Positions 3,901-62,461 of a stretch of 64,000 bases of DNA are shown here, in pieces (the stretch's first letter is position 1; the number at the start of each line of letters is the position of its first letter). Origin of the DNA: Panaeolus papilionaceus (Eukaryota; Basidiomycota; Agaricomycetes; Agaricales); NCBI GenBank assembly GCA_015501605.1, contig JADNRZ010000005.1, forward strand, positions 1,798,001-1,862,000, given 5' to 3'. The position numbers and the translations under genes are program-made. A model generated the notes under the pieces. It was not told the DNA's origin, searched no databases, and worked only from the letters and a program-made list of their open reading frames with translations.

Positions 3901-4787
3901 TAGCACGCTAACAAGTGCACTAACGAAGTTAGTGTTTATATTGTGCCGCGAATTCTACGATTGACAATGTCGAATGGACCACCCACCAGCACTCTAACCG
4001 TTTTCAATTATTCGTACAGCCTGGCTTTAGAAGATTCGACATTGCTTATGTCCCATTCAAGGACATCACGAAGGCTAACCACTACGACCAATAGTACTTT
4101 AGAGTTTGAATGCGGATTGATAACAATCGATGGCCACTCTTACGCCCGTCTTGCGAGCGGAAATTAAGATATGAATATGTCCATTACCACCATACCCCAC
4201 AATCAGTAACAATCCTTGAGCTTTCCAACCCGCTCCTCAGCCATTCGTATTATCAATCGACTCGGGCATAGGTATAGGGATTTGCGGCGCACAGGGAGCC
4301 CCCACTCCCAAAAAAGTTTGCTTTTTCACATCCATATGCGCCTTTGTGCAGTCAGATAAGTAAACTCGTGAATCAGTCCCTCGGTGGGAGCTCCCTTCCG
4401 TCCTCCTAAATTTATGGGATATAACTCCATGTGCGCTGTCCTCGGAAAAGTTCTCGTTATGTAAACGTCCACGTCAATAATACTCTGGAACTGAGTGAAG
4501 GGTCAAACTTACAATATTTATGATGTGGGGCGTGTATTTTACTGAGAGTATTTACATACGACAGCAGACCACAGCATACCAGGGGCTACACCCACCGCCA
4601 CGGTCGCATTGACAGACAAATGACAATCACGTGATCGCGTTTTCGTGGGTCATTCAATTTCAAACGAGCTCAGTTCTGAGTCCTGACCGGGGACCTTCTT
4701 CTCACTCTCGTCTCTAACACAGCTTTTGATTTCTTGCTCCCATCTCGTCTCTTATACCACTAATTTTATCTAAACAATATAGAGCAC
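946..4787. other. 3.8-kb gap without a recognisable gene
   Basis: Only short open frames with no recognisable domain occur here. The one clear structure is a perfect 20-bp palindrome at 2427-2446. The stretch just before 4788 is the separase 5' region: pyrimidine-rich CTTCTTCTCACTCTCGTCTC-type sequence followed by an A/T-rich leader, as is common upstream of fungal starts. Confidence 0.5.
2427..2446. repeat. Perfect 20-bp palindrome
   Basis: GGCGCCTAAATTTAGGCGCC reads identically on both strands and does not extend further. No inverted-repeat element was found around it. GGCGC-containing motifs recur in the tandem repeat at 30.5-30.8 kb. It may be a chance structure or a footprint of a lost element. 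Confidence 0.6.
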
Positions 4788-32687: not shown

Positions 32688-32694
32688 GAACTCG

Positions 32695-33461
32695 TATGGC
32701 ACGCCATCTGCACATTTATTATTTTGCAGTTGCACATCTGTAAGTCTCAATTTTGGTGTGAGTGACACACAGATTTCGAAATTTTGAGTGTGCGACACAC
32801 AGATTTGTACATTTATCTGTGTGTGGCACACAGATTCACGCATTCGAGCTCAAAATCTTGACGCACATCCGGGCGTATTGCCTAATAAGGTAATTCGTCC
32901 AGATGTGTGTCACAAAATGAGCTCGTTGAACCTCAGTTGCACACACAGAGCGCGTTTCAACCTGCATGTGCACACAGATATATTCGTCTCAAATTTCAGT
33001 TGTGCACATATTTAGAGCCCTGCCGTCGGACTTTAAATAGGGCCGAGCTTGCTTTCGGCCTCGGACGGCAAGGGTTATTTAACATAAGGGGCCGGGCTTA
33101 CACAATAATGGTAAAGTCAGGACCGTCAGGGGGGCTTGAGCCTCGAGCTTAGAACCGAACAAGACGCTCCCGAGGCTCGAAGGGCTCAGGATCTCACTCG
33201 GGACCACTCGTAACACGTATACCAACATACACACGACAAGCTATCTCTCATGAATGTCATCACTGAATGTTTCGAAAACAAGTAGATTCAGTAAAAACAG
33301 CATTAAAATGAAATATATGAGATGCGTTTCGGTCTTAAGTTATGGCTGAGCGGGATAATTCCCACGCAATACATCGAGTTTTGATCTCGAAACGAACCAA
33401 GCATGCTTAAGTTGAGGTAGAGGTGGACGCGCGCAGCTTAACGAACATTCAAACGAATATT
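32695..33461 (+). repeat. Left terminal inverted repeat of the composite
   Basis: Pairs with 41237-42006 and 49566-50335 as an inverted, imperfect repeat of about 0.75 kb. The outer 40 bp are near perfect. Inside are repeated CACACAGAT/ATCTGTGTG motifs, plausible subterminal transposase sites. At 33013-33085 lies a hairpin-forming stretch (GCCGTCGGAC ... CTCGGACGGC) whose centre holds TTTAAATAGGGCC, a possible core promoter. Confidence 0.85.
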
Positions 33462-33699
33462 AGAATAGTATAATACAGACACTCGAGGCATTTTTTATCC
33501 CTCCGAAAATTTACTCAAAATCGGTTGCGCCCCCTTCGAAAAAACCATGATTTACAACGGAAACGGCAGTATATTAATTGCACTATAGCCTCTAACTAAA
33601 GCCAAAGTTAACTAATGCAGACTCGACACTACGCTTCTATTAATGAGTTGAGTAAGAATATGTGGGATAAGCGGAGGTATGGGCAGGGGCGATCGTGCA

Positions 33700-34080
33700 G
33701 GTGGCTAGTAGGGATGAAATAGAAAGCACGAGAGCGATAGGAAGAGGAAAGAAGAAGGAGAGGATAAGCGACAGGGAGAGGGAGGAAGACTATGCGATAG
33801 AACGGCAAGGGAGGTTAATGGATATTAATAGAATGGAGTATAGGATAGAGAGGATAGGAGAAGAGTGGAGAGAGAGTGGAGAGCGGACAGGAGATGATAA
33901 GGGAGTGGAGTATCGGACAGGGAGGACAGGAAAGCAAGAGAGATCTAGAGTAGAGAGCGGACAGGAGAGGATAAAGGAGCGGAGTATAGGACAGGGAGGA
34001 CAGGAGAGGGAGTGGAGAGAGAATGCAAAGGATAAAGGAGTGCGGTAGTGAGCATAAGAGGAGGGTACGAAACGTGAGAG
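33700..34080 (+). repeat. Polypurine tract with 74-bp imperfect repeats, unit 1
   Basis: Nearly 380 bp are almost all A/G on the plus strand. Two copies of GAGAGCGGACAGGAGA.GATAA..GAG start 74 bp apart (33879 and 33953). The same tract occurs at about 42030-42410 in unit 2. It lies downstream of the acidic protein gene; open frames across it are compositional artefacts. Confidence 0.75.
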
Positions 34081-34277
34081 GATGGGATAGGAAAACGAGT
34101 GTAGATGGGTGTCAGGACTAGCAAGGGACTCGGAGAAGGCTGAATATAGGAATGATGGAGGGCACACACGACTGGTATGCACGGAGGAGTCGGCGGATGT
34201 CGGACCACATACTGTTAACTTGTGGCGAACGCAACTGAATTGAAGTGTAAGGGCGAAGTAGAGGGCACAGAAATAAT

Positions 34278-36017
34278 CTACGGTCGATAAACCGCGTGGT
34301 CAGGAACTTCAGGGTCACAGGTATTCTCGTCATAGAAATCGGCAAGATTGATAGATGACATTGATCTGTCGAGTTGCTGGAAAGAAGGGCCAGGGGAATC
34401 CTCTCCCGACCCTTCATTATCCGTGGCATTGTGGTCAGACGAGTCTAGAAGAATATAAGCGAAAGAAGATCGTTAATATGCAACGCAAGGTCACTTACAA
34501 ATTGTAATGATCTCAGGCTTGGTTGTACGAGCGGTGAACTTCCCAGATGAGCGGAGTGTACGACGAGTAGGAGCAGAATGTGAGGACGACGATGAATTAC
34601 GAGTTGGCTTAGAGGACGGTTTAGAGGAAGATGAGGAGGAAGCATGTGGCGCTGCGAAGGAGATTTGAGAGCCAGATGTTTTCGACGATGATGAAGTAGT
34701 TCGAGAACCGGAGCCGGAGGCTGAGCGAGTGCCGCTAGTCCGCCACTGGTGGAACTCCTTCAAAGGAATGCGCTTAGTCGATACTGTGGGTTAATGTTCA
34801 GTTATGCTAATAATACAATTAAATGCAGAATGTACTACTCACCAATGCACAATGTACTCTTGGGCTTGGTCCGGCGACCAACCATACCGCTGATCAGGCG
34901 CACCATCTTGCCATTACATGTAGGCTTCTCTTTTCCATCGGATGAGTTGAACTGTCTACCTTTACCCTTGCCAACGCTGGCCTGTCTCTCGACCATGTCC
35001 ATTCGTACCACACTACCTCCCTCAATGGTTCCGTCCTCCATCAACCTGTCCCTTTCGCTATCCTCATCTATACCCTTGCCAACCTCCAAATCATCAACAA
35101 CTCGGCACCCGCCATCCTCAGCATCAACCTCATCGCCGCCGCCACCAACCGCCTCCATGCTACTGTGATCAAGGTTAACGAGCTCATACCTCCCACATGA
35201 TCCCTTGATCTGGACACAAGGAAGCCAAAGCGGAGTGTCATCGCCTTCACCGTGTTCGATCATCCACGTTGTGGCATCAGGAAGTATGGTACAGATGTGA
35301 TCCCAAACCTGATCTTGAGTCCAAGACTCATCAAACTCGTACCCATTGCTCGGCCACGTGCATAGCGCACGGTTCATTGCACGGACCTCCTCGCGCCCAA
35401 AGTTGTATTCCTCCATCCAGTAGGTGCCATCGTGAACTTGACCAATATCTGAGTCTTCCCCATCAACATCACTATCGGGCGCTGTACTCTATGGAGTGTG
35501 AAATAAGAACATGAGAATGACATGAGTAAGAAAATATAAAGTGTAAGATGCGAACCAGTTTAACCCCACACGGTAGAATTGCGACCGTGCTGACCATGAA
35601 CTTGGTATTGGTTTGCTTAGCCGCTGGCGCTAGGGCATTCGAAGGTGGTACTTCTGAGTGTTGCTTTGCAGCCTTCTTCTTTAACCCTTTGTTGGTCTCG
35701 AGCCTAGCTTGCTTCACCTTGGCATCCTTTGATTCTGAGGTCGGGTTGTCGCCATTGTCGCCTCCTTCATCAGAATCATCAGCAATCAAACTGGTAAGAT
35801 TGCGTCGGAATGAGGTGAGAGGGAGCCTGGATGATTTCGATTTCGATTTCGAGGATGAAGATGAGGTTGAGCGAGTAGAGCGAAGGTCGGTACGGGCCTT
35901 TTTCTGAGGACGGTTAGACTGGTGAGATGGGACGGAGGTTGAGTCGGAGTCGGAGTCTAAGGTTTCGGGACTAGATGCAGAACCAGAGGCCTTGCGCTTA
36001 CGATGGGTTCTTGCCAT
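34278..36017 (-). CDS. Transposon accessory protein, 519 residues, acidic and Ser-rich (unit 1)
   Basis: Exons 36017-35556, 35488-34843, 34783-34499 and 34444-34278 join in phase. The N terminus is basic (MARTHRKRKASGS) with Ser/Asp-rich runs, suggestive of a nuclear protein. The middle has a non-repetitive segment EYNFGREEVRAMNRALCTWP and TPLWLPCVQIKGSCG that could be a small folded domain. The C-terminal third is Ser-rich then acidic. I do not recognise the family. It lies 187 bp downstream of the transposase stop on the same strand and belongs to the element. It might bind the repeated subterminal motifs, as second proteins of other DNA transposons do, but that is a guess. Confidence 0.7.
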
Positions 36018-36203
36018 AGTCAAGATAAAAGCGTTTCGAAGGGTCAATTAAAAACAAGAGAGCAAGTATGTAAGAAAGTAGGGGGAGTATCGGAGGATTA
36101 AATCGATAAAATAGAGATGAGTACCGGGGGAAGGGGTGTAGGCACTACAGAAATACGAAATACACCAGCTGTATTTATACTACTGCCCAGCGTCCATACA
36201 TGT

Positions 36204-38274
36204 TCAGTGTTTACGACGATGTTCCAACCCAACAAGATAGCACGCTTGCGCCCATCGAACTGCTCGTGGAAACCAGATGCTGTGCGTAAGATGAATGGGT
36301 TGGTTGGTCCGCGCTCTCCCCACAGGAAGAAACTCAACTTCAGGGTAATTTCCTTCAAACCATTCCTCTGGCCGAACGCCATACCCACGAGGAATAACAT
36401 CTCCAGCTTCCAACATGCATCTTTCCAGATCTGCAAGATCGTTCTGGTTGAAGGGACAATTACCCTCTGGTACGTCAACAGAATCGTGCTTGATGTTGAT
36501 ATCCACATCGTGTTCCATGACCTCCTGCACACTGCCCTGATTAAACGGTACCGCCCTATCCATATTGCCTGCTAAATCCAGGAACTCTTCAATACCGTTG
36601 AGATCATCTTCATCATCCTGACCTTCTGCATCGTCATCATACTCTTCGTCGGACTGAAATCCATTGCTAGAGTTACCTCTGTCTTCGTCCTCGTCCCCAC
36701 TCAGGCCGGTGTTGTTATTCGGTTCCTCATCTTTGGTGCTGGATGGATAACCATAATACTCCTCAATTTCGGATAGACTAAAACCCTCGCATTCATCGAA
36801 GAATTCGAACCTGTGGGTATTTAACGTGTAGACGCCATGTTTGACCATTCCTTCGATCTCAAGGTCCTAATCAGATGATCAATTGTTAGATACCGCTGAT
36901 CTGGATAATTGACCACTTACGTTTGGTGATTTGTTGCCTCGTGTGCGGATCGGGTGTGAGTTCCATACGTCAACGAATGTGTCACAGTCCTGCTGAATTT
37001 GATCAAGGAATAGCCAATGAAGTAGCCAGCGGTGTGTTTCATTCTGTGCATCAAGGTGATGCAGCCTCCCGAGCCGACCAAAGAATGCTCTCCACGCTCT
37101 GACCACCTGTTCGCCTAGGTCGACCCAGGTTCGCTCAATAGGGGTGTTGTGAACACTGGGACCCCATAAGAAGCTACCCCGATTTCTGCCTCGGACGAGT
37201 ATCATGAGCACAGAGACGTCCCGGTTCTCCCCTCCTCTATCACCCCGAACTCGAGAAGGCACACCGTGTTCATTAATTGAATCAACAAACATGTTGAGCA
37301 CAGTCCGTGCGGTGTTTCGGGTGTTGACCCTGAGTCCCGTAATCTAAATATGGAATCATTATAAATTGGTTACGTTGAATCAAAACAGCGCCGGCACACC
37401 TTTCTAGAATATCCGTCAATGATACCGTGTATCACAATACCCCAAAGAATGAGTTTGTGGTGCCCGTCGATGTGCCAAAGAGCATGAGGCCTTGAAACAT
37501 GGTAGCTTCTCCGTGGCTTCTTCGCCTGTGCCTGCTTCCGGATATTGAGTCCAACTTGATCGACATTATGGATTGCCAACCGTAATCGTTTACGCTGAAC
37601 CCGAAGTTTGTACCGTGCACGGAGATGACCAGTGACATATGCCTCTCCACTTGTGGGTTTTTCCTGAAGTGTAGTGCGAACCATGTCCTCCAGCTGATCA
37701 TCAGTAATATCTGAATAGGATGTGATACTAAGACCTGCTTCCTTCAACTGCTTCGCCAGAGTATTCCGATGAACCTGAAATAGTTGAGCAAGAGCCGTCA
37801 TCGTGAGATTACAATCAGGGCTTGATGCCCATTCCAAAGCTGCTCGGCTGATTTCCTTCGCAGGCCGCCCCGGTTGTCCTGTGTAAATTACCCTATACAT
37901 AGGTGTTGTTCTCGAAGGTGTGGATTTTCTGTAATGAGGCGTCAGCCCAAGCATGACGAAGCATAGGGGTCTATTCAAATGTACTTGTCAACATCTTTCA
38001 TTATTTTTGTTAGCTCATCGAAGAGTTCCAGAGTGACCCTGGCAGTTTCTTTGACCCAAAATCGAAGAGAAGGCTCTTGAGCCTTGATTGATTCTAATAG
38101 AGGATAGACCTGACTCTGCAACATATTGATGTGGGAGATGACCCGATGTTTGTTGTATATTCCAGTATTGATTAATTGGCTAGTAGTGTAATAGGCATTG
38201 TATATGATATCTGAAGCAACGAGAATGGAAGATGGCCACGATGGTTGCTTTGCAGGAAGACTGGGAAGTGGCAT
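36204..38274 (-). CDS. Integrase-core (rve/DDE) transposase, unit 1
   Basis: Exons 38274-37985, 37928-37400, 37343-36921 and 36866-36204 give 634 residues. An N-terminal helical segment is followed by a helix-turn-helix-like LTMTALAQLFQVHRNTLAKQL. The catalytic core has LWHIDGHHKL (D about 251), VRGDRGGENRDV (D about 308) and VHNTPIERTWVDL (E about 343), a DDE triad with 34 residues between the second Asp and Glu. The acidic tail (EDEDRGNSSNG, DDDAEGQDDEDD) follows. It should cut and join the TATGG termini. The GHHKL.W.IVIHG.IDGYSRK wording is that of eukaryotic integrase-type DNA transposons, possibly IS3EU-like; 7-bp duplications leave the name uncertain. All splice sites recur in the diverged copy at 62.4 kb. 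Confidence 0.85.
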
Positions 38275-38666
38275 TCTGACAAGAAAATCCGAGGAGATTC
38301 CAGAGGGAAAGAGTTGACAACGAAGCTTCACTTCACTAACCACATATAAATAGTGTGTCATCTGGGTCATCTGATGGTTCTATTTTTCTCAAATGCTAGT
38401 ATGGTTGGTCTATTATTGTTATCAGTCGTGCATGGTACAGGTTAGCGGAGATATTCTTTATTTGTCATCGCAGCAATGTCGGTGAACTGTGATCACAGAA
38501 ATGTCCGAGTCAATATATTCTCGTCGCAGACAATCCTATTGCTTATGGTACAAGCTAGGGGAGAGTTCGGTAGAATTTCACCACATACAAAACAACTTAA
38601 AAGATGGTGGTTCTTGTTGTCCTTGGACTCATCTCCACGGTATTCCTGAATCTGGCCTGAATTCCG
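38275..38666. promoter_or_regulatory. Divergent promoter region between transposase and BTB1, unit 1
   Basis: The 392 bp separates the transposase start (minus strand) from the BTB1 start (plus strand). The same divergent layout is kept in unit 2 (46605-46996) and in the older element (62204-62461), which implies shared control. No specific operator is recognised. Confidence 0.5.
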
Positions 38667-39713
38667 ATGAACGATAACCCTGCTGAACCAACGACTTCGA
38701 ATGATGTTGTGACTCTGTCTTGGCATGAGCGGTTCAAAGACCCACCAATGACAGTCAGATTCCGGGTGAGTAATATTATTTCACTATTTATTATCACAAT
38801 AGACTGATTCTCCGTGATCTTGTACACAGGCTGGTGCTACCATTTTTTGCTGTGGAAATTGCGCAGTTCATCAGAGAGTCTCCCAAGATTGCCAAACTTT
38901 ATGAACTTATCAAAGAGAGAGGCTACAACGCTGCTGGGGAGTATCCGATTCCTCTACCTGGCCTATCCGCAAGGTCACTGGAGACGTTTTTAACCTTTGT
39001 ACAATCCGACAAGTAAGATTTTTCATTCATTTTATTTAATTACTAAATTAACCATAATTTATCACAGAGAAAGCGCAGGGACTCAGACCTCCAATTCCTC
39101 GGTTAAGTTCTCGAGAGAGGACATTATCGATGTCATTGCTGTGGCCCAGTGCTGGCAGCTCAGAAATCTTGCCACCCGGTGTACCAACCGATTGGACCTC
39201 AAGAACCAGTCACCCACGTTTCAACTACACGTAGCTTCTAACTTCCATCTAAGTTCAGTTGTTTCTGGCGCTGTTACAGAACTGATTCTCACCGATCTCA
39301 ATGACTGGATTGAACCGGAGTTATTACCGATTGGCATTTACCACACAATGAGCCGGGCGCGCGAAGCAATCCAATGCCAAAGACTCAATATCGCCACTCT
39401 CTTTCCCACCATTGCATCGTTTCCAGCCATCTGTAAACAACATGATATATGTCAGGACGAATGGCGTTTATTGTGGGCTACACACGTCGCAAAACAATTA
39501 TCCAAGTCGAAGCCGAGAGTGTCCGTATTGGCATGCCGTGATGCACTCATTGATGTAATGGACAAAAATAGTGTTATCGCCAAGGGATGCCTTCATCATA
39601 TGAAGGACGATCTCACCCTTCACCCAAACTGGAAACCATGCTGGGAGGCAGAATCAGTAATTATTGATCAGGTTATCAAGCGCGTGACAGAGATGGTGAT
39701 GGAAGGAGAATAA
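38667..39713 (+). pseudogene. BTB-domain protein 1 (BTB1), unit 1, frameshifted
   Basis: Exons 38667-38765, 38830-39012 and 39068-39713. In exon 2 the T run at about 38842-38847 has six T instead of the five in unit 2, shifting the frame shortly after GATIF and destroying the BTB core. Otherwise identical in coding content to unit 2. A true 1-bp insertion or a homopolymer sequencing error are both possible. Confidence 0.75.
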
Positions 39714-39858
39714 ATAGCTGCTTGGAGTGAACGCACATGCAGTAATTTAGAGAATAAATACCATGTACCGTGATGGTATATATAGTGTTTTAAATTTCAG
39801 TTCAAGTCATTGCTTTCGACCTCTACCGTCAACCCTCTCAACCCTTATTCTGGTAGTT

Positions 39859-40836
39859 ATGTCTACTATGAATGCCGATTCTTTCATTCCCACCGAAGAG
39901 ACTCCCACCGAACATCCTATGTACAATGAGGATGCGGTTGGTGTTGTAATCCAGGTATCCATCTTCCATTTTCATACAAGTCAAGCGAGTGCTAACGATC
40001 CAAAGATTGATAGAACTTTGTACTGGGCTAACAAAGCAGACCTAATCCGTTATTGTGCCTTCTTTGAGGGTGCATTTGGAATGACTGAATATGTATCAAC
40101 CGAAGGGACGGTCGAAAAGCCCTTACAGTTCAATGATCGTATTACATCAGAGATGTTTGAGCCGTTCTTGACGTGGTTGTGGGAAGGGTAAGCCAGCAAA
40201 ATATTTCTAATAGGGAATATAATCTGATGGTTATTTAGTTCCCGTGGAGATTATACCGCCAGCGATTTGGAGAACATGCTTCTGCTCACCAATGCATGGA
40301 ATGCACCAGTAGCTCAGGAATTCTGTTTGGAGCGGCTTATCTCCATGAATACTTGCCCATTCTATCGAATTCGAGTTGTTATGCCGTATAAAGATCCTGA
40401 AGATCTTCGACGGACAATCATCACTGCCATTGGAACTCCACAAAGCTCTTGGCCAATGAACAACCGACCAGTCGATACTGTCTTGATGCAGCTAAAAATA
40501 CGCCTTCAGGAAGTTCGGCGAGATCTCGTTGCTCAGCCTCCAGCTATCACACGGAACCCAAATTGTTCTACCGATGATCATGTGGTTTGTCATGGCTGGT
40601 GGCAGGATGACTGGAGAAGGTATGTTTCGGAGCCGGTATTCCGCACCATCAATCCGATGCCTATCTCTCGGGCGTATGAGGCTATGAAGGCGATTACCTT
40701 TCATACGTCGGTGTGTAGGAAGGATGCTATGGAAGCACTGATGGCTAATGAATTGCTCCTGACAAGCGAAGACAGGTTGATCGACGAGGCAGTCAGGGCA
40801 GTGTCGGAACATTTGAGTCGCCAGATGTTGATTTAG
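39859..40836 (+). CDS. BTB-domain protein 2 (BTB2), unit 1
   Basis: Exons 39859-39954, 40006-40187 and 40239-40836 give 291 residues. The BTB-like fold region covers IDRTLYWANKADLIRYCAFF through FEPFLTWLWEG, then a BACK-like stretch DLENMLLLTNAWNAPVAQEF. Near the C terminus CSTDDHVVCHGWW resembles the C..H..C plus Trp pattern of fungal BTB proteins. Its counterpart at 59.4-60.3 kb reads much closer to textbook fungal BTB (SGVFRGMF, NPLCLHGIEVKEFEPLVQWL), which supports the assignment. BTB proteins often bridge Cullin-3 ubiquitin ligases to substrates; target unknown. It lies 145 bp after BTB1 on the same strand, between BTB1 and the right TIR. Confidence 0.75.
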
Positions 40837-41236
40837 ATAATGTAAATAGTACACATTGCTTTTCGAATCTTAATAGTCCTGTTTTCAAGGTATTCAGTAA
40901 ATCCTTGGTTTTTATCTTGCCTGTGATTAAAAGGATTATCAATGCACCTGAAGCGCGCTGTCTGAACGTCCGTGGGAGCGATTTTATGGCTGTGAACTGC
41001 CTGACTGAGATTAAGTACATCAGGCATAATGATAATTGTTTCGATTTCAGGTGAGATTCGGACTCCATTCTGATTGTCGAACTAATACTAAATGGCCGTT
41101 TCTCGACAAAGCTATAAACGATAACGGAAGCGTTGTTGAGTCCAGTCAAAGCACAAAACGGGCGTAGCAAACAAATTTTTAAGTATTTTTTTGGAACATT
41201 AAAAATGATAGGAGTGCAAACCTTATACCATTGGAG

Positions 41237-42006
41237 TGCCCGTTTGATCGTTCGTTAAGGCACCCGTGTCCATCTCAACCTAATTCGACAAGCTTGGATC
41301 AGCGTTGAGACCAAAATTAGAGGTATAGCGTGGGAATTGTTCCCCTCAGACACAACTTAAGCCCCGTACGCATTTAATATATTTCATTATAATTGTGATT
41401 TATACTAAATATTTGATTTTGCATATTCCATCGACGCCGTTCACAAAAGTGTTAATTCATTTATGCATGCATGTGGGCATTCTCCCAAGCCAGGGTGAGC
41501 GGCCTCGAGCCCTTCGAGGCGTTCGAGCCTCGGAGCATCTTCTTCGGTTCAACGCTCGATTACCCTGACTATGATTGTGTAAGGCCGGCCCTTCGGTCAT
41601 ATGGCCTATGCTATGAAGACTAATAACCCCTGCCGTCCGAGGCCGAAAGCAAGCTCGGCCCTATTTAAAGTCCGACGGCAGGGCTCTAAATATGGGCACA
41701 ACTGAAATTTGAGACGAATATATCTGTGTGCACATGCAGGTTGAAACGCGCTCTGTGTGTGCAACTGAGGTTCAACGAGCTCATTTTGTGACACACATCT
41801 GGACGAATTACCTTATTAGGCAATACGCCCGGATGTGCGTCAAGATTTTGAGCTCGAACGCCTGAATCTGTGTGCCACACACAGAAAAATGTAGAAATCT
41901 GTGTGTCGCACACTCAAAATATCGAAATGTGTGTGCCACTTACGCCAAAATTGAAATTTACAGATGTGCAACTGCAAAATAATAAATGTGCAGATGGCGT
42001 GCCATA
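41237..42006 (-). repeat. Right terminal inverted repeat, unit 1 (internal)
   Basis: Ends GGCGTGCCATA at 42006 and is followed by G then TATGGGCAGG, the start of unit 2, instead of host DNA. It has about 36 bp extra relative to the left TIR after the GCCGAAAGCAAGCTCGG block. Confidence 0.85.
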
Positions 42007-42607
42007 GTATGGGCAGGGGCGATCGTGCAGGTGGCTAGTAGGGATGAAATAGAAAGCACGAGAGCGATAGGAAGAGGAAAGAAGAAGGAGAGGATAAGCG
42101 ACAGGGAGAGGGAGGAAGACTATGCGATAGAACGGCAAGGGAGGTTAATGGATATTAATAGAATGGAGTATAGGATAGAGAGGATAGGAGAAGAGTGGAG
42201 AGAGAGTGGAGAGCGGACAGGAGATGATAAGGGAGTGGAGTATCGGACAGGGAGGACAGGAAAGCAAGAGAGATCTAGAGTAGAGAGCGGACAGGAGAGG
42301 ATAAAGGAGCGGAGTATAGGACAGGGAGGACAGGAGAGGGAGTGGAGAGAGAATGCAAAGGATAAAGGAGTGCGGTAGTGAGCATAAGAGGAGGGTACGA
42401 AACGTGAGAGGATGGGATAGGAAAACGAGTGTAGATGGGTGTCAGGACTAGCAAGGGACTCGGAGAAGGCTGAATATAGGAATGATGGAGGGCACACACG
42501 ACTGGTATGCACGGAGGAGTCGGCGGATGTCGGACCACATACTGTTAACTTGTGGCGAACGCAACTGAATTGAAGTGTAAGGGCGAAGTAGAGGGCACAG
42601 AAATAAT

Positions 42608-44347
42608 CTACGGTCGATAAACCGCGTGGTCAGGAACTTCAGGGTCACAGGTATTCTCGTCATAGAAATCGGCAAGATTGATAGATGACATTGATCTGTC
42701 GAGTTGCTGGAAAGAAGGGCCAGGGGAATCCTCTCCCGACCCTTCATTATCCGTGGCATTGTGGTCAGACGAGTCTAGAAGAATATAAGCGAAAGAAGAT
42801 CGTTAATATGCAACGCAAGGTCACTTACAAATTGTAATGATCTCAGGCTTGGTTGTACGAGCGGTGAACTTCCCAGATGAGCGGAGTGTACGACGAGTAG
42901 GAGCAGAATGTGAGGACGACGATGAATTACGAGTTGGCTTAGAGGACGGTTTAGAGGAAGATGAGGAGGAAGCATGTGGCGCTGCGAAGGAGATTTGAGA
43001 GCCAGATGTTTTCGACGATGATGAAGTAGTTCGAGAACCGGAGCCGGAGGCTGAGCGAGTGCCGCTAGTCCGCCACTGGTGGAACTCCTTCAAAGGAATG
43101 CGCTTAGTCGATACTGTGGGTTAATGTTCAGTTATGCTAATAATACAATTAAATGCAGAATGTACTACTCACCAATGCACAATGTACTCTTGGGCTTGGT
43201 CCGGCGACCAACCATACCGCTGATCAGGCGCACCATCTTGCCATTACATGTAGGCTTCTCTTTTCCATCGGATGAGTTGAACTGTCTACCTTTACCCTTG
43301 CCAACGCTGGCCTGTCTCTCGACCATGTCCATTCGTACCACACTACCTCCCTCAATGGTTCCGTCCTCCATCAACCTGTCCCTTTCGCTATCCTCATCTA
43401 TACCCTTGCCAACCTCCAAATCATCAACAACTCGGCACCCGCCATCCTCAGCATCAACCTCATCGCCGCCGCCACCAACCGCCTCCATGCTACTGTGATC
43501 AAGGTTAACGAGCTCATACCTCCCACATGATCCCTTGATCTGGACACAAGGAAGCCAAAGCGGAGTGTCATCGCCTTCACCGTGTTCGATCATCCACGTT
43601 GTGGCATCAGGAAGTATGGTACAGATGTGATCCCAAACCTGATCTTGAGTCCAAGACTCATCAAACTCGTACCCATTGCTCGGCCACGTGCATAGCGCAC
43701 GGTTCATTGCACGGACCTCCTCGCGCCCAAAGTTGTATTCCTCCATCCAGTAGGTGCCATCGTGAACTTGACCAATATCTGAGTCTTCCCCATCAACATC
43801 ACTATCGGGCGCTGTACTCTATGGAGTGTGAAATAAGAACATGAGAATGACATGAGTAAGAAAATATAAAGTGTAAGATGCGAACCAGTTTAACCCCACA
43901 CGGTAGAATTGCGACCGTGCTGACCATGAACTTGGTATTGGTTTGCTTAGCCGCTGGCGCTAGGGCATTCGAAGGTGGTACTTCTGAGTGTTGCTTTGCA
44001 GCCTTCTTCTTTAACCCTTTGTTGGTCTCGAGCCTAGCTTGCTTCACCTTGGCATCCTTTGATTCTGAGGTCGGGTTGTCGCCATTGTCGCCTCCTTCAT
44101 CAGAATCATCAGCAATCAAACTGGTAAGATTGCGTCGGAATGAGGTGAGAGGGAGCCTGGATGATTTCGATTTCGATTTCGAGGATGAAGATGAGGTTGA
44201 GCGAGTAGAGCGAAGGTCGGTACGGGCCTTTTTCTGAGGACGGTTAGACTGGTGAGATGGGACGGAGGTTGAGTCGGAGTCGGAGTCTAAGGTTTCGGGA
44301 CTAGATGCAGAACCAGAGGCCTTGCGCTTACGATGGGTTCTTGCCAT
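42608..44347 (-). CDS. Transposon accessory protein, 519 residues (unit 2)
   Basis: Same as the copy at 34278-36017, with exons 44347-43886, 43818-43173, 43113-42829 and 42774-42608. No coding difference was seen between the two. Confidence 0.7.
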
Positions 44348-44533
44348 AGTCAAGATAAAAGCGTTTCGAAGGGTCAATTAAAAACAAGAGAGCAAGTATG
44401 TAAGAAAGTAGGGGGAGTATCGGAGGATTAAATCGATAAAATAGAGATGAGTACCGGGGGAAGGGGTGTAGGCACTACAGAAATACGAAATACACCAGCT
44501 GTATTTATACTACTGCCCAGCGTCCATACATGT

Positions 44534-46604
44534 TCAGTGTTTACGACGATGTTCCAACCCAACAAGATAGCACGCTTGCGCCCATCGAACTGCTCGTGGA
44601 AACCAGATGCTGTGCGTAAGATGAATGGGTTGGTTGGTCCGCGCTCTCCCCACAGGAAGAAACTCAACTTCAGGGTAATTTCCTTCAAACCATTCCTCTG
44701 GCCGAACGCCATACCCACGAGGAATAACATCTCCAGCTTCCAACATGCATCTTTCCAGATCTGCAAGATCGTTCTGGTTGAAGGGACAATTACCCTCTGG
44801 TACGTCAACAGAATCGTGCTTGATGTTGATATCCACATCGTGTTCCATGACCTCCTGCACACTGCCCTGATTAAACGGTACCGCCCTATCCATATTGCCT
44901 GCTAAATCCAGGAACTCTTCAATACCGTTGAGATCATCTTCATCATCCTGACCTTCTGCATCGTCATCATACTCTTCGTCGGACTGAAATCCATTGCTAG
45001 AGTTACCTCTGTCTTCGTCCTCGTCCCCACTCAGGCCGGTGTTGTTATTCGGTTCCTCATCTTTGGTGCTGGATGGATAACCATAATACTCCTCAATTTC
45101 GGATAGACTAAAACCCTCGCATTCATCGAAGAATTCGAACCTGTGGGTATTTAACGTGTAGACGCCATGTTTGACCATTCCTTCGATCTCAAGGTCCTAA
45201 TCAGATGATCAATTGTTAGATACCGCTGATCTGGATAATTGACCACTTACGTTTGGTGATTTGTTGCCTCGTGTGCGGATCGGGTGTGAGTTCCATACGT
45301 CAACGAATGTGTCACAGTCCTGCTGAATTTGATCAAGGAATAGCCAATGAAGTAGCCAGCGGTGTGTTTCATTCTGTGCATCAAGGTGATGCAGCCTCCC
45401 GAGCCGACCAAAGAATGCTCTCCACGCTCTGACCACCTGTTCGCCTAGGTCGACCCAGGTTCGCTCAATAGGGGTGTTGTGAACACTGGGACCCCATAAG
45501 AAGCTACCCCGATTTCTGCCTCGGACGAGTATCATGAGCACAGAGACGTCCCGGTTCTCCCCTCCTCTATCACCCCGAACTCGAGAAGGCACACCGTGTT
45601 CATTAATTGAATCAACAAACATGTTGAGCACAGTCCGTGCGGTGTTTCGGGTGTTGACCCTGAGTCCCGTAATCTAAATATGGAATCATTATAAATTGGT
45701 TACGTTGAATCAAAACAGCGCCGGCACACCTTTCTAGAATATCCGTCAATGATACCGTGTATCACAATACCCCAAAGAATGAGTTTGTGGTGCCCGTCGA
45801 TGTGCCAAAGAGCATGAGGCCTTGAAACATGGTAGCTTCTCCGTGGCTTCTTCGCCTGTGCCTGCTTCCGGATATTGAGTCCAACTTGATCGACATTATG
45901 GATTGCCAACCGTAATCGTTTACGCTGAACCCGAAGTTTGTACCGTGCACGGAGATGACCAGTGACATATGCCTCTCCACTTGTGGGTTTTTCCTGAAGT
46001 GTAGTGCGAACCATGTCCTCCAGCTGATCATCAGTAATATCTGAATAGGATGTGATACTAAGACCTGCTTCCTTCAACTGCTTCGCCAGAGTATTCCGAT
46101 GAACCTGAAATAGTTGAGCAAGAGCCGTCATCGTGAGATTACAATCAGGGCTTGATGCCCATTCCAAAGCTGCTCGGCTGATTTCCTTCGCAGGCCGCCC
46201 CGGTTGTCCTGTGTAAATTACCCTATACATAGGTGTTGTTCTCGAAGGTGTGGATTTTCTGTAATGAGGCGTCAGCCCAAGCATGACGAAGCATAGGGGT
46301 CTATTCAAATGTACTTGTCAACATCTTTCATTATTTTTGTTAGCTCATCGAAGAGTTCCAGAGTGACCCTGGCAGTTTCTTTGACCCAAAATCGAAGAGA
46401 AGGCTCTTGAGCCTTGATTGATTCTAATAGAGGATAGACCTGACTCTGCAACATATTGATGTGGGAGATGACCCGATGTTTGTTGTATATTCCAGTATTG
46501 ATTAATTGGCTAGTAGTGTAATAGGCATTGTATATGATATCTGAAGCAACGAGAATGGAAGATGGCCACGATGGTTGCTTTGCAGGAAGACTGGGAAGTG
46601 GCAT
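44534..46604 (-). CDS. Integrase-core (rve/DDE) transposase, unit 2
   Basis: Same 634-residue protein as at 36204-38274, with exons 46604-46315, 46258-45730, 45673-45251 and 45196-44534. DDE residues and splice sites are intact. With two intact copies, the composite has an uninterrupted transposase source. Confidence 0.85.
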
Positions 46605-46996
46605 TCTGACAAGAAAATCCGAGGAGATTCCAGAGGGAAAGAGTTGACAACGAAGCTTCACTTCACTAACCACATATAAATAGTGTGTCATCTGGGTCAT
46701 CTGATGGTTCTATTTTTCTCAAATGCTAGTATGGTTGGTCTATTATTGTTATCAGTCGTGCATGGTACAGGTTAGCGGAGATATTCTTTATTTGTCATCG
46801 CAGCAATGTCGGTGAACTGTGATCACAGAAATGTCCGAGTCAATATATTCTCGTCGCAGACAATCCTATTGCTTATGGTACAAGCTAGGGGAGAGTTCGG
46901 TAGAATTTCACCACATACAAAACAACTTAAAAGATGGTGGTTCTTGTTGTCCTTGGACTCATCTCCACGGTATTCCTGAATCTGGCCTGAATTCCG

Positions 46997-48042
46997 ATGA
47001 ACGATAACCCTGCTGAACCAACGACTTCGAATGATGTTGTGACTCTGTCTTGGCATGAGCGGTTCAAAGACCCACCAATGACAGTCAGATTCCGGGTGAG
47101 TAATATTATTTCACTATTTATTATCACAATAGACTGATTCTCCGTGATCTTGTACACAGGCTGGTGCTACCATTTTTGCTGTGGAAATTGCGCAGTTCAT
47201 CAGAGAGTCTCCCAAGATTGCCAAACTTTATGAACTTATCAAAGAGAGAGGCTACAACGCTGCTGGGGAGTATCCGATTCCTCTACCTGGCCTATCCGCA
47301 AGGTCACTGGAGACGTTTTTAACCTTTGTACAATCCGACAAGTAAGATTTTTCATTCATTTTATTTAATTACTAAATTAACCATAATTTATCACAGAGAA
47401 AGCGCAGGGACTCAGACCTCCAATTCCTCGGTTAAGTTCTCGAGAGAGGACATTATCGATGTCATTGCTGTGGCCCAGTGCTGGCAGCTCAGAAATCTTG
47501 CCACCCGGTGTACCAACCGATTGGACCTCAAGAACCAGTCACCCACGTTTCAACTACACGTAGCTTCTAACTTCCATCTAAGTTCAGTTGTTTCTGGCGC
47601 TGTTACAGAACTGATTCTCACCGATCTCAATGACTGGATTGAACCGGAGTTATTACCGATTGGCATTTACCACACAATGAGCCGGGCGCGCGAAGCAATC
47701 CAATGCCAAAGACTCAATATCGCCACTCTCTTTCCCACCATTGCATCGTTTCCAGCCATCTGTAAACAACATGATATATGTCAGGACGAATGGCGTTTAT
47801 TGTGGGCTACACACGTCGCAAAACAATTATCCAAGTCGAAGCCGAGAGTGTCCGTATTGGCATGCCGTGATGCACTCATTGATGTAATGGACAAAAATAG
47901 TGTTATCGCCAAGGGATGCCTTCATCATATGAAGGACGATCTCACCCTTCACCCAAACTGGAAACCATGCTGGGAGGCAGAATCAGTAATTATTGATCAG
48001 GTTATCAAGCGCGTGACAGAGATGGTGATGGAAGGAGAATAA
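46997..48042 (+). CDS. BTB-domain protein 1 (BTB1), unit 2, intact
   Basis: Exons 46997-47095, 47160-47341 and 47397-48042 give 308 residues. BTB core: RFRAGATIFAVEIAQFIRES, then AKLYELIKERGYNAAGEYP and IPLPGLSARSLETFLTFVQS. After it, DIIDVIAVAQCWQLRNLATR and SPTFQLHVASNFHLS correspond to the BACK-like helical part. CKQHDIC is a C-x2-H-x2-C motif also present in the diverged copy (CRSHEQC). No signal peptide or membrane segment. It shares a divergent promoter region with the transposase. The cellular role is unknown; acting as a ubiquitin-ligase adaptor or as a dimerising DNA-complex partner are both possible. Confidence 0.8.
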
Positions 48043-48187
48043 ATAGCTGCTTGGAGTGAACGCACATGCAGTAATTTAGAGAATAAATACCATGTACCGT
48101 GATGGTATATATAGTGTTTTAAATTTCAGTTCAAGTCATTGCTTTCGACCTCTACCGTCAACCCTCTCAACCCTTATTCTGGTAGTT

Positions 48188-49165
48188 ATGTCTACTATGA
48201 ATGCCGATTCTTTCATTCCCACCGAAGAGACTCCCACCGAACATCCTATGTACAATGAGGATGCGGTTGGTGTTGTAATCCAGGTATCCATCTTCCATTT
48301 TCATACAAGTCAAGCGAGTGCTAACGATCCAAAGATTGATAGAACTTTGTACTGGGCTAACAAAGCAGACCTAATCCGTTATTGTGCCTTCTTTGAGGGT
48401 GCATTTGGAATGACTGAATATGTATCAACCGAAGGGACGGTCGAAAAGCCCTTACAGTTCAATGATCGTATTACATCAGAGATGTTTGAGCCGTTCTTGA
48501 CGTGGTTGTGGGAAGGGTAAGCCAGCAAAATATTTCTAATAGGGAATATAATCTGATGGTTATTTAGTTCCCGTGGAGATTATACCGCCAGCGATTTGGA
48601 GAACATGCTTCTGCTCACCAATGCATGGAATGCACCAGTAGCTCAGGAATTCTGTTTGGAGCGGCTTATCTCCATGAATACTTGCCCATTCTATCGAATT
48701 CGAGTTGTTATGCCGTATAAAGATCCTGAAGATCTTCGACGGACAATCATCACTGCCATTGGAACTCCACAAAGCTCTTGGCCAATGAACAACCGACCAG
48801 TCGATACTGTCTTGATGCAGCTAAAAATACGCCTTCAGGAAGTTCGGCGAGATCTCGTTGCTCAGCCTCCAGCTATCACACGGAACCCAAATTGTTCTAC
48901 CGATGATCATGTGGTTTGTCATGGCTGGTGGCAGGATGACTGGAGAAGGTATGTTTCGGAGCCGGTATTCCGCACCATCAATCCGATGCCTATCTCTCGG
49001 GCGTATGAGGCTATGAAGGCGATTACCTTTCATACGTCGGTGTGTAGGAAGGATGCTATGGAAGCACTGATGGCTAATGAATTGCTCCTGACAAGCGAAG
49101 ACAGGTTGATCGACGAGGCAGTCAGGGCAGTGTCGGAACATTTGAGTCGCCAGATGTTGATTTAG
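48188..49165 (+). CDS. BTB-domain protein 2 (BTB2), unit 2
   Basis: Same 291-residue protein as at 39859-40836, with exons 48188-48283, 48335-48516 and 48568-49165. No coding difference between units was noticed. Confidence 0.75.
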
Positions 49166-49565
49166 ATAATGTAAATAGTACACATTGCTTTTCGAATCTT
49201 AATAGTCCTGTTTTCAAGGTATTCAGTAAATCCTTGGTTTTTATCTTGCCTGTGATTAAAAGGATTATCAATGCACCTGAAGCGCGCTGTCTGAACGTCC
49301 GTGGGAGCGATTTTATGGCTGTGAACTGCCTGACTGAGATTAAGTACATCAGGCATAATGATAATTGTTTCGATTTCAGGTGAGATTCGGACTCCATTCT
49401 GATTGTCGAACTAATACTAAATGGCCGTTTCTCGACAAAGCTATAAACGATAACGGAAGCGTTGTTGAGTCCAGTCAAAGCACAAAACGGGCGTAGCAAA
49501 CAAATTTTTAAGTATTTTTTTGGAACATTAAAAATGATAGGAGTGCAAACCTTATACCATTGGAG

Positions 49566-50335
49566 TGCCCGTTTGATCGTTCGTTAAGGCACCCGTGTCC
49601 ATCTCAACCTAATTCGACAAGCTTGGATCAGCGTTGAGACCAAAATTAGAGGTATAGCGTGGGAATTGTTCCCCTCAGACACAACTTAAGCCCCGTACGC
49701 ATTTAATATATTTCATTATAATTGTGATTTATACTAAATATTTGATTTTGCATATTCCATCGACGCCGTTCACAAAAGTGTTAATTCATTTATGCATGCA
49801 TGTGGGCATTCTCCCAAGCCAGGGTGAGCGGCCTCGAGCCCTTCGAGGCGTTCGAGCCTCGGAGCATCTTCTTCGGTTCAACGCTCGATTACCCTGACTA
49901 TGATTGTGTAAGGCCGGCCCTTCGGTCATATGGCCTATGCTATGAAGACTAATAACCCCTGCCGTCCGAGGCCGAAAGCAAGCTCGGCCCTATTTAAAGT
50001 CCGACGGCAGGGCTCTAAATATGGGCACAACTGAAATTTGAGACGAATATATCTGTGTGCACATGCAGGTTGAAACGCGCTCTGTGTGTGCAACTGAGGT
50101 TCAACGAGCTCATTTTGTGACACACATCTGGACGAATTACCTTATTAGGCAATACGCCCGGATGTGCGTCAAGATTTTGAGCTCGAACGCCTGAATCTGT
50201 GTGCCACACACAGAAAAATGTAGAAATCTGTGTGTCGCACACTCAAAATATCGAAATGTGTGTGCCACTTACGCCAAAATTGAAATTTACAGATGTGCAA
50301 CTGCAAAATAATAAATGTGCAGATGGCGTGCCATA
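49566..50335 (-). repeat. Right terminal inverted repeat, unit 2 (outer)
   Basis: Matches 41237-42006 and abuts the right host flank, which begins with the target duplication GAACTCG. Confidence 0.88.
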
Positions 50336-50794
50336 GAACTCGGACATCCAACTAAGTGAGCTTGAAGTAGACGGGAACCTGTCTCATTCATAGATTTTTG
50401 TGTATGTGTATGCGTATGTAGACAGAACGTTCAAGAAATCCCTCGGCAGGTTAATTGGTGATGAGCTCACGCCTATCCGAACGTGTGAAAGTTGTAAAAA
50501 TTAGGCATGAGAACGTTGTACTACTTTCTAAGAGATGAACAAGTTGAAGTCAAGTCAATGGACCTACGAGCATGTGATACGGTCGGTAGGATTTTTATTT
50601 GGTGCGAGCCTGAAATAATGTACCCCTCTGTACCAGTGCGCGTTGGGGACATAGAGTACATAATACACAAGTATTCTCTCAAGGTCAACCAGACACTCAG
50701 AACAAGACGACAAGGCATGCTATGACAAGAAAATGACACAAGCAAGAATTACAACAAGAACAAGGACCCAAAATAAACCGAACCGAAATACCGC

Positions 50795-59369: not shown

Positions 59370-60349
59370 CTACTCCTCCATACGCTCATCCTGTAGAATA
59401 TTGGCTTCAATACAACTTTTTGCATTGTCATAGAGATCATCCTCAATCCCGAAATCCTCACCATGTTCCAGCTCTGATAAAGCAAAAGGGTGACATGGTG
59501 TAGGATTTGGTGAGGACCTGACCATCACTTGATGGATTGTCCTCAAAGCAAGCGGTGTAGTTGGATGAAAAGTGGGTGCCACAATGTGGGTACGCCAATC
59601 ACTGACCCATTGCACATAATATTTGTGATGGTCAAGGCACATGTCAACCTGTGGCATAGAGGACGGAATGGCTACTAACAACTGATGCACTTCATCAAGC
59701 CGAACCCTAAGCTTCAGAAGCGGAACATAGACAGCACAGTTATCAAAAGACCATTAACTTAACAGTTGTTTAATAGCAGATCGAATGAGATCAGCCAATC
59801 TGTCCCATCTCTTATAACCAACAGCCAGATTCAGGTGGAAAAAAGGATCCTGCTCTACTTCCCACAAACCCTCCCAACAGAAATCATCCACAGCAGGCAT
59901 GTCAAACTGATCAGCAAGGCGCATCAACCTCACAAGGTTGTCCTTCTGGAAGGGGTGGTTTGCATATTCAGGTGGCCTGGAGATTGTCAGTCTCTATAAT
60001 TAATAGGCCCACAGATGTGTAATTGACTCACTTGCCACCAAATGTTAGCCATTGGACCAAGGGTTCAAACTCCTTGACCTCAATACCATGTAAGCACAGT
60101 GGATTTCTCTCTGTTCCTTCACCTGTGGTTCCAAGTGCTGGTGATTCATCAAACATCCCCCTAAACACACCAGAGTACTTGACAAGGTCACTTCATTCAA
60201 GCCAATAGAGGGTACCATGAACCTAATAAAATGGTAAATGTCAACACAGATATCAATATAAGAATTTCACTAACAGCGATGACCAACCCAGATGCTTCAT
60301 GGGTGACTTTTGAGATGGAAGAATCAATAGTGGGTGCTGATAGGGACAT
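59370..60349 (-). pseudogene. BTB2 of the older element, with in-frame stops
   Basis: Model exons 60349-60275, 60222-60032 and 59976-59370 total 291 codons, against 291 residues plus a stop in the composite's BTB2. The BTB core is very clear: DLVKYSGVFRGMFDES, NPLCLHGIEVKEFEPLVQWL, then LVRLMRLADQFDMPAVDDF. A TGA at 60193-60195 interrupts GTLYWLE-SDLVKYS and a TAA at 59754-59756 interrupts AIKQLLS-WSFDN. In both places the frame continues in register with the intact homologue. Confidence 0.75.
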
Positions 60350-60484
60350 GAACAGGACGTTTGGAGGCAGAATACTGACTTGTAGGTGTTGTACTTTGAA
60401 AAGTATTTGGATTTTGTTTGCTTTTTTATAGCTGGAGACATCAATTTCTGTTTAATTTGTACTTAATTTTACATTGCATATTTA

Positions 60485-62203
60485 CTATTGTGTAGTACCA
60501 ATTTGAATATGATGCTTGATCCTTGCCTCCACCTCATCCAGTATGCTTTCTTCCTTATTCCATACTCTAACCCAGCTGTCATTTGTGGTCAGGTCTCTCT
60601 TCATATGATGTGTGCAACCCTTACTGATTCCTGAATTGGCCTGCATTATGGTGCTAATAAAAGAATCCCGAAGACTGATTGCTGATTCTCGGGTGATGTG
60701 ATAGAATCTTGCCAGATCTGGTCACATGCCCCCTTACATTGTTCATGAGACCTGCACTGAATCTCCAAACCAGAATCTCGGGGAATTGTTGGGAAGAGCG
60801 CAGCAATATTCCCACATTGTACTGAGATTACATCCTGAGCAAAGGTAAGTTCTTTGAAGATGGTCAGAGATAGATGTTTGACATCCTCCCACTCATTTAC
60901 AGGTGTATATGCGAGAGAATTGATAGCACTCCTGATATCTTTATCATCTTTGAAGGAATGTGCGAAGGATAGGCAAAATGCGGGGGACTGCTGGGACAAA
61001 TCTAACCTGTTTGCCAACTCAGCTTCGAGTGTCTGGAGTTGCCATTTCCGGGCAACTGCCAAGCACCAGAGGATATCATCTTTACTCCTACTCTGGTCAG
61101 CAACAGGCTGATGGTCTTTCCATGAGCTGTTACGTATAGTGTTAGCTATATTTCGTTCTTGGTATGGAAAACGTAAAACTACTAACCGATTGATAGCAAG
61201 ATACTCCATGAGGGTATCCACCTGTATCTTGGTAATACCATCGAGGTGAGTACTTGTCAGTCCCCCCTGAGTACTGTACGGACTCCCTAGGGACTCTCTG
61301 CCAAAAAACACAGAATTGCCACCTAACACAACTGTGGACACCCTCAACTACAACACCAGCATACAAGGACAGTGCAAACAAACAAAAAAACAAGGCAAAA
61401 TTACCTTGTATTATGAGAAATTTGTAATATATGTGCTGGAGTCACTTGAGTCCCAAGGGACTCCCTACGGACTTTTTACATATATTACCTAAATTTGATG
61501 TTTTGATAGGTTTCAGACAAATCCATATACAGAGTCCCTAGGGACTCCCTGGGACTCCAGCAGTAATACAAGGCAATTATGGGAAATACTGTGAGTACAA
61601 TTGTCCATATATTGTAATGACTAATTATTATCTACATCAGAGTCATCTGCATTTGCATTATCCAATTTTCCTGGAGTCCCTGTGGAGTCCCAATGGAGTC
61701 CATCAGAGTCCGTAGGGACTTCCTAGGGACTCTGTATATGGATTTGTCTGAAACCTATCAAAACATCAAATTTAGGTAATATATGTAAAAAGTCCGTAGG
61801 GAGTCCAGAGAGTCCGTAGGGAGTCCCTATGGTACTCCAGGGGGACTGAGAAGTTCAGATTGAGGTGGATTGGATCCTACTCAGACCCCTTGGCAATGCT
61901 GTTTGGTGCAGTTTTCAATCCCTCATAGAGATTAGCCATGCATGGTGATTGGTCAGTATAGCAACTGAGTTCAATTGAAAAAACACTGGACCCTGACTAA
62001 TACATTGTCAATGCCAAAATGTGTCTTGAAATTTAAAATGTACTCACCGCTGTAAACCATGCTTTTAATGGGTGGCGAGAATACAATGAATCCCAAACCA
62101 TTGAGGGCCCTTGTGATGCTGTACTATTGCCAGTGCACTCATCCTGAGGGCGAAGCAGCCCTTCAATGCAAGCAGGAGATGAAGGAGAAGGCTTGTTGTC
62201 CAT
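60485..62203 (-). pseudogene. BTB1 of the older element, interrupted by a 610-bp insertion
   Basis: Exons 62203-62048, 61996-61187 (containing the insertion) and 61126-60485. Removing the insertion plus one 9-bp duplication leaves 191 nt of exon 2, exactly in phase. Readable homology: SVFSIELSCYTDQSPCMANL, ILWCLAVARKWQLQTLEAEL, CRSHEQC, and KGCTHHMKRDL. Lesions: an in-frame TAG at 61877-61879, the inserted element, and a 1-bp deletion near 60712 after CDQIW. Repeated introns and phases confirm the gene model of the intact copy. Confidence 0.8.
61249..61858. mobile_element. 610-bp inverted-repeat element inserted in BTB1
   Basis: Ends AGTACTTGTCAGTCCCCC and, inverted, TGAACTTCTCAGTCCCCC. Flanks are ATCGAGGTG (61240-61248) and ATTGAGGTG (61859-61867), a 9-bp duplication with one change. 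The interior is a nested palindrome: about 80 bp at 61470-61550 recur inverted at 61716-61800, with many GTCC.TAGGGACTC units. A 9-bp duplication suggests a Mutator-type non-autonomous element. No coding capacity. Confidence 0.75.
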
Positions 62204-62461
62204 AATGTCAAATTTGTTAGGGATGATGCATCTTCGAAATTGTGTAAATGTTATAGTGTAGCATATCCGGGGTACTACCGAGCATCAGTCATTCAAACAA
62301 TCAGGTGAACAAGTACATGTGGTGACTGTTTATTTTTATAATTTGCATCAGTCAGCACAAGCAGTGTGGGTCGCACATAGTGTTCTGATTTTTTTTAAAA
62401 TAGCTACTCAAGTCACCAACATGCATATTTTAACCAAAGAACCCAGTTAGATATCCCTTGT

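Follow-up and report, generated by a model that had tools for sequence, protein, structure and literature searches.

A likely IS3EU transposon of Panaeolus papilionaceus with a co-inherited pair of BTB-like genes and an acidic-protein gene

When a DNA transposon is found with further genes beside its transposase, do these genes belong to the element, and which side do they serve? This question is raised by an insertion in a 64,000-nucleotide stretch of the genome of the basidiomycete Panaeolus papilionaceus (assembly GCA_015501605.1, contig JADNRZ010000005.1, positions 1,798,001 to 1,862,000), hereafter called the window, in which two BTB-like genes and a gene for an acidic, serine-rich protein lie next to a DDE transposase. 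We refer to this insertion, at positions 32695-50335 of the window, as E1, and to the sibling loci found in the same genome (50.85 Mb, 71 contigs) as E2-E17. On balance, we consider E1 to be a DNA transposon that likely belongs to IS3EU and whose BTB-like pair and acidic-protein gene probably serve the expression and movement of the element rather than the host.

E1 is flanked by a perfect 7-bp target-site duplication (TSD), GAACTCG, as a preliminary description made from the sequence alone had noted, and it is bounded by terminal inverted repeats (TIRs), which that description had recognized with a length of 0.75 kb and which we find to extend over about 0.83 kb. The two arms, of 826 and 830 bp, are 97% complementary over their outer 385 bp, while the inner part has diverged; in this alignment the left arm was paired with the right arm at 41177-42006, of which the outer right arm is the identical repeat. 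The repeat arises because 8.33 kb of E1 are tandemly duplicated (units 33677-42006 and 42007-50335), so that every gene of the element is present twice. There are no mismatches between the units and only a single 1-bp length difference in a T run, which disrupts the BTB1 frame of unit 1 and leaves that of unit 2 open. The preliminary description included neither this duplication nor the IS3EU affinity, the decayed second family member E5 at 59409-64000 or the Spt5-like gene of the siblings, all of which are treated below. The features of the insertion are as follows:

32688-32694, no strand: left TSD GAACTCG, identical to the 7 bp at 50336-50342
32695-33520, plus strand: left TIR with tip TATGGCACGCCATCTGCACA (gapped alignment; tip pattern paired across the genome)
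34278-36017, minus strand: acidic/Ser-rich protein gene of unit 1, 519 residues (spliced model; exons 35556-36017, 34843-35488, 34499-34783, 34278-34444)
36204-38274, minus strand: rva_4 DDE transposase of unit 1, 634 residues (spliced model, Pfam; exons 38274-37985, 37928-37400, 37343-36921, 36866-36204)
38667-39713, plus strand: BTB1 of unit 1, frame-broken (1-bp difference from unit 2)
39859-40836, plus strand: BTB2 of unit 1, 308 residues (spliced model; exons 39859-40187, 40239-40836)
41177-42006, minus strand: right TIR of unit 1, enclosed within the insertion (gapped alignment)
42006-42008, no strand: duplication junction, the exact right TIR end (CCATA), then G, then internal TATGGGC (as at 33678)
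42608-44347, minus strand: acidic-protein gene of unit 2 (identical to unit 1, offset 8330)
44534-46604, minus strand: transposase of unit 2 (identical to unit 1, offset 8330)
46997-48042, plus strand: BTB1 of unit 2, open frame, 308 residues (spliced model; exons 46997-47095, 47160-47341, 47397-48042)
48188-49165, plus strand: BTB2 of unit 2 (unit comparison, offset 8329)
49506-50335, minus strand: right TIR (inner limit set by offset from the unit 1 arm)
50336-50342, no strand: right TSD GAACTCG, a perfect copy of the left 7 bp

The spliced models bear out the 519-residue acidic protein and the 634-residue transposase that had been described earlier, the latter with the catalytic triad D251/D308/E343 and 34 residues between the last two positions. 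An upstream methionine at 38370 would extend the transposase to 666 residues; the numbering of the triad holds because the sibling transposases share the motif M[VA]FPxLP at the methionine that gives 634. The protein matches Pfam rva_4 at 3.9e-64 and rve at 5.5e-7 (30.2 bits, below the cut-off of 32.6), and a PDB search with it gave no match at E<=0.1. BTB1 and BTB2 of E1 are transcribed divergently from the transposase, with the start of BTB1 0.3-0.4 kb from the transposase gene.

The same arrangement recurs across the genome. At least 17 rva_4 loci were found (tandem counted once), and both BTB1 and BTB2 are present at 15 of these 17, with BTB1 no farther than about 1.4 kb from the transposase and the divergent order retained. 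These counts are lower bounds; the lists hold the scored best candidates, so that weaker free-standing relatives may exist. The two loci without BTB genes in the stretches read are E15 (C43; C with a number stands for a contig), whose transposase is truncated and without its N-terminal part, and E17 (C20), an apparently degraded rva_4 gene of another lineage. For the calculation of distances and of the ratio of nonsynonymous to synonymous substitution rates (dN/dS), we used two transposase exons and, for each BTB gene, the last exon, leaving out E5 (decayed), E15, E17 and the BTB2 of E16 (broken model), as well as BTB1 of E13 and the transposases of E14 and E16, for which no complete locus was at hand. 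Across the 11 elements compared, transposase, BTB1 and BTB2 diverge in step: Mantel correlations of protein distances were 0.961 for transposase-BTB1, 0.959 for transposase-BTB2 and 0.931 for BTB1-BTB2. After removal of E9 and E12, which are near-duplicates of E7 and E10, the values in the same order were 0.940, 0.953 and 0.899, and after removal of E1 as well they were 0.930, 0.857 and 0.814; none of 5000 permutations reached the observed value in any of these comparisons. In the trees of the nine elements that remain without the near-duplicates, transposase and BTB1 share 5 of 6 splits, as do transposase and BTB2, and BTB1 and BTB2 share 4 of 6; the two BTB splits that conflict with the transposase tree have support of 0.50 and 0.03. 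Both BTB genes are under purifying selection, with dN/dS of 0.13-0.38 for BTB1 (11 of 78 pairs) and 0.13-0.33 for BTB2 (12 of 78), next to 0.06-0.11 for the transposase (14 of 66), as calculated from pairs with dS between 0.1 and 1, the other pairs being saturated or nearly identical.

With the pair at 15 of 17 loci, agreeing distances and trees, and purifying selection, the earlier proposal that the BTB-like genes belong to the element stands, and we are confident that the pair and the transposase form one co-inherited gene set. The reverse case, in which ordinary host BTB genes were captured once at the E1 locus, has in its favor that the host does possess typical BTB genes (21 matches to PF00651 in the genome). 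We reject it within this genome given the presence of the pair at 15 of 17 loci; the divergence is also deep, with 27-36% identity between E1 and its siblings in the aligned last exon, and a single capture is barely credible. The other finding that the preliminary description had named as fatal to its proposal, a transposase that mostly occurs without BTB genes, was likewise not encountered in this genome.

The other accessory genes follow the family in different measure. Relatives of the acidic protein adjoin E2, E3, E4, E5, E7, E9, E11, E13 and E14, that of E8 was recovered by spliced alignment, and the core of the protein is conserved beside the sibling transposases; another relative lies at C17, where no transposase was found. 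In addition, an Spt5-like gene encoding NGN and KOW domains lies at or near 13 of the 17 rva_4 loci. In E7, E8 and E9, of which both ends were located, this gene is placed beyond BTB2 and inside the TIRs, and it shows a dN/dS of about 0.17 (E8 versus E9). The E8 protein matches Spt5-NGN at 4.5e-5 (23.7 bits, cut-off 22.4) and KOW2_Spt5 at 0.0035, below the cut-off, and its KOW part matches solved SPT5 chains from 1.4e-6. The Spt5-like genes of E3 and E15 are 21 and 11 kb away and were probably parted from the transposase locus by insertions. At E17 only a distant Spt5-like relative was found: the transposase relic lies at C20:474576-475220 and the Spt5-like gene about 6 kb off at 481900, with a long retroelement-like open reading frame (ORF) between them. 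This arrangement may point to an older link.

Spt5-like NGN/KOW genes also lie 2.6-2.9 kb from transposases of another type, Plavaka, on the same strand, at four places (C45:1903179, C14:536749, C14:68233 and C4:1646330); the C4 Plavaka transposase was confirmed by reading the locus (1.4e-83), and the C14:68k copy is about 99% identical. Further NGN matches without Plavaka within 40 kb are located at C10:995774, C45:2418736, C26:431099, C17:284453 and C33:74823. Spt5-like genes seem to accompany elements of at least two transposon superfamilies, and their position near Plavaka is a hint that they can be transferred from one element type to another. This observation fits the view that the accessory genes are passengers, kept for the benefit of the host or their own and of little gain to the element. 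The same view could draw on C67:2280990-2282279, where relatives of BTB1 and BTB2 are adjacent and neither a transposase nor an Spt5-like gene was matched; this locus could be either a relic or a pair of host genes. Against the passenger view stand the fixed gene order and orientation and the purifying selection; moreover, apart from C67, the BTB1 and BTB2 matches found at E<=1e-3 among the scored best candidates are at transposase loci or in the element fragments C64 and C70, which retain a TIR tip. We regard mere passengers as improbable.

We then considered what kind of protein the pair encodes. BTB2 appears, by sequence, to be a diverged BTB protein: of 9 members, 5 have a PF00651 match at E<=1 (best 2e-4; that of E11 at 0.0012, its 19.4 bits falling short of the cut-off of 20.5), and the BTB2 profile can be aligned with a pair of host BTB genes with a hhalign probability of 83% (E 8.6e-6, 61 columns). 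BTB1 is called BTB-like because it is homologous to BTB2 (hhalign probability 97.6, E 3e-12, 229 columns), which is its sole link to BTB. In their C-terminal part, both families contain an invariant HxxC followed eight positions on by an invariant W, a possible metal site. Searches of the PDB with the BTB2 and BTB1 profiles gave best E values of 0.63 and 0.48, respectively, and among the viral contigs searched for BTB2 relatives, 50 pattern matches were obtained, none of which was confirmed.

The ends of the elements show that the family has been mobile. We counted 36 occurrences of the tip pattern TATGGNNNGCCATCTGCACA in the genome and none of the reversed control; 29 of these 36 tips combine into 14 inverted pairs, one of which, E1, has an additional inner end, and 7 are single. 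Two types of ends can be told apart, those of E1, with tips TATGGCAC..GTGCCATA, and those of E7-E9, with tips TATGGTGC..GCACCATA. Perfect 7-bp TSDs flank 9 of the 11 paired copies with E1-type ends, namely E1, a deleted copy at C70 and 7 of 8 copies resembling miniature inverted-repeat transposable elements (MITEs); of the remaining two, the TSD at C64 matches in 6 of 7 bases and C26 has none. The TATGGTGC-type ends have 6-bp TSDs in two of three cases (E7 and E8), E9 being without one. E9 (C45:2383606-2394425) has flanks that repeat each other in inverted orientation (gtggaagggtag/ctacccttccac); farther out, a 94-residue ORF is also repeated in inverted form. Although on different contigs, E7 and E9 are near-identical, with paired tips bounding both, and their identity ends exactly at ..GCGCACCATA (on one side, with both flanks aligned). 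The C70 copy (C70:2154332-2157876) is 98.3-99.6% identical to E1, lacks E1 positions 1310-7569 and has its own 7-bp TSD. The 8 MITE-like copies, of 1085-1120 bp, have only the outer ~250 bp in common with E1 and fall into at least two subfamilies with 95-99% identity within each.

The MITE-like copies bear on what we see as the main rival explanation, in which the BTB pair and the acidic protein either belong to the transposition complex or regulate it, unrelated to silencing, with a BTB heterodimer bridging transposase molecules or the long TIRs. As the outer ~250 bp are all that these copies have in common with E1, the outer ends by themselves seem to suffice in cis, and nothing ties the BTB proteins to binding of DNA or transposase. 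On the other hand, the BTB-like genes are constant (15 of 17 loci) and present also where the Spt5-like gene is absent; they diverge in step with the transposase, and the divergent position of BTB1 at 0.3-0.4 kb from it suggests shared control. We judge this explanation somewhat unlikely.

From its tips, TIRs and transposase, the E1 family likely belongs to the IS3EU superfamily. In PMC12730594 (PubMed Central, PMC), fungal IS3EU elements are reported with TAYGG..CCRTA tips, which the E1 tips TATGG..CCATA fit, with TIRs of more than 30 bp, with 6-bp TSDs, as in the siblings E7 and E8, and with accessory genes, one of which is opposite in direction to the transposase, as here. According to PMC10045372, IS3EU/GingerRoot elements in general likewise have an rve-type DDE core and TA..TA tips, and the superfamily TSD is usually 6 bp. 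The preliminary description had held that rve-type transposons usually carry only a transposase; this is not supported. Fungal IS3EU in rusts and Tuber indicum carry TET/JBP and alpha-kinase genes (PMC12730594), the TET/JBP genes being proposed there as anti-silencing factors. Accessory cargo as such is thus already known in IS3EU, and what is new is the BTB-like, acidic and Spt5-like cargo (the last in most siblings) in a set that stays together; the words BTB, KOW and Spt5 are absent from the main text of PMC12730594, and none of the open-licence PMC papers listed reports BTB or Spt5 genes in a transposon in its title or abstract opening. TET/JBP had no match in the window and six matches genome-wide, of which only C24:387378 lies within a stretch bounded by family genes. 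This match, itself below the cut-off, is situated in the 21 kb between the Spt5-like gene and BTB2 of E3, where it is probably a nested insertion. For alpha-kinase, there was no Pfam match among the four proteins of the window, with no search aimed at it. Kyakuja, Zisupton and Plavaka elements with TET/JBP (PMC12730594) are comparable in being fungal DNA transposons whose accessory gene is of a chromatin type and presumed to act against silencing, and differ from the E1 family in transposase family and cargo. Dada elements, as described in PMC3706591, share the 6-7 bp TSD with the E1 family and are characterized by DxxH after the second D, zinc fingers, small RNA gene targets and a lack of TIRs in the described families. 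Membership in Dada was rejected, as E1 has 0.83-kb TIRs and an rva_4 transposase; no tRNA was found in the window.

How might the accessory genes serve the element? Because BTB1 and BTB2 are paralogues that lie side by side and diverge in step, we infer that they would form an obligate pair. Together with the other accessory genes, the pair would make up a transcription-support or anti-silencing module that keeps the genes of the element on. On element DNA, the Spt5-like protein, where present, would ride on RNA polymerase II (Pol II) or protect it, and at the same place the host Cullin-3 or chromatin machinery would be acted on by the BTB pair, whose Cul3 binding is putative; in the window copy, without an Spt5-like gene, the BTB pair and the acidic protein would act alone. 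This mechanism is argued by analogy and we put it forward tentatively, as a possibility. The analogies are that Spt5 restricts heterochromatin in fission yeast (PMC10659198) and that, in human cells, Pol II without SPT5 is removed through CUL3 and the BTB adaptor ARMC5 (PMC11758996). A more specific version, which we think a long shot, would be a protection kit for Pol II: the Spt5 paralogue and the BTB pair block or hijack the Cullin-3 removal of Spt5-less polymerase, so that the element is transcribed through silent chromatin, and the Spt5 module, like TET/JBP, is exchanged between transposon superfamilies (IS3EU and Plavaka). Accessory proteins encoded by an element reveal what it has to contend with in its host. 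TET/JBP cargo directed attention to DNA methylation, and a conserved set of BTB pair, acidic and Spt5-like proteins would direct it to Pol II elongation and Cullin-3 control. We did not find this side of transposon silencing treated from the viewpoint of the element in the open-licence PMC literature searched. As a single genome offers many siblings, MITE-like derivatives, and copies that either have or lack the Spt5-like gene, the idea can be tested directly.

Several observations weigh against an element-serving role of this kind, and against parts of the argument that leads to it. All siblings come from this one genome. The two BTB genes of the preliminary description, there correctly seen as divergent from the transposase, encode 308 residues each, but the window copies have no Pfam BTB match at E<=10, so that the label rests on the siblings; for BTB1, none of 7 members matches PF00651 at E<=1, and the hhalign probability with the host BTB pair is 0.2%. 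A single-sequence AlphaFold2 model of the window BTB2 was unusable, with a mean predicted local distance difference test score (pLDDT) of 33. The closest pairs of elements show little or no measurable constraint: BTB1 of E11 and E16 differ by 6 nonsynonymous and 2 synonymous changes and the transposases of E10 and E12 by 2 and 1, with 0 to 3 changes per gene in E7-E9 and E10-E12. No Spt5-like match was found at E1, E5 or E16 (E16 being some 6 kb from a contig start), the best tblastn E value in the window being 1.4, and the Pol II/CUL3 removal pathway has been described in human cells, while E1 does without an Spt5-like gene. The TSD of E1-type ends is 7 bp, versus the 6 bp reported for fungal IS3EU (PMC12730594), and the pair at C67 stands without a transposase match.

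The tandem duplication inside E1 is a question of its own. At the junction, the right TIR end is followed by G and then by an internal TATGG, the same pentamer as at the element tip. This pentamer occurs 9 times in the 7.65-kb interior of E1, so that a randomly placed breakpoint would hit one with odds of about 1 in 850, a figure reckoned post hoc. In one reading of the tandem, the transposase used this false left end, and a circle of the unit recombined back into the element; the junction could be the record of a circular or one-ended transposition intermediate. Circles with abutted ends are formed by bacterial IS3 elements. The tandem may instead be an assembly artefact, the true locus being a single 9.3-kb element, and we take this as a serious possibility without preferring it: 0 mismatches over 8.33 kb, with a difference in T-run length only, are as expected of a misassembled repeat; against an artefact stands the joining of the exact TIR end to one of nine internal TATGG pentamers.

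Two other loci lie in the window. The second family member, E5, lies about 9 kb from E1:

59409-64000, BTB2 and BTB1 on the minus strand, transposase on the plus strand and running past the window end: E5, decayed

On the other side, a host separase gene is found at 11064-11813 (Peptidase_C50, 2.7e-57), with weak TPR matches upstream at 8768-9721.

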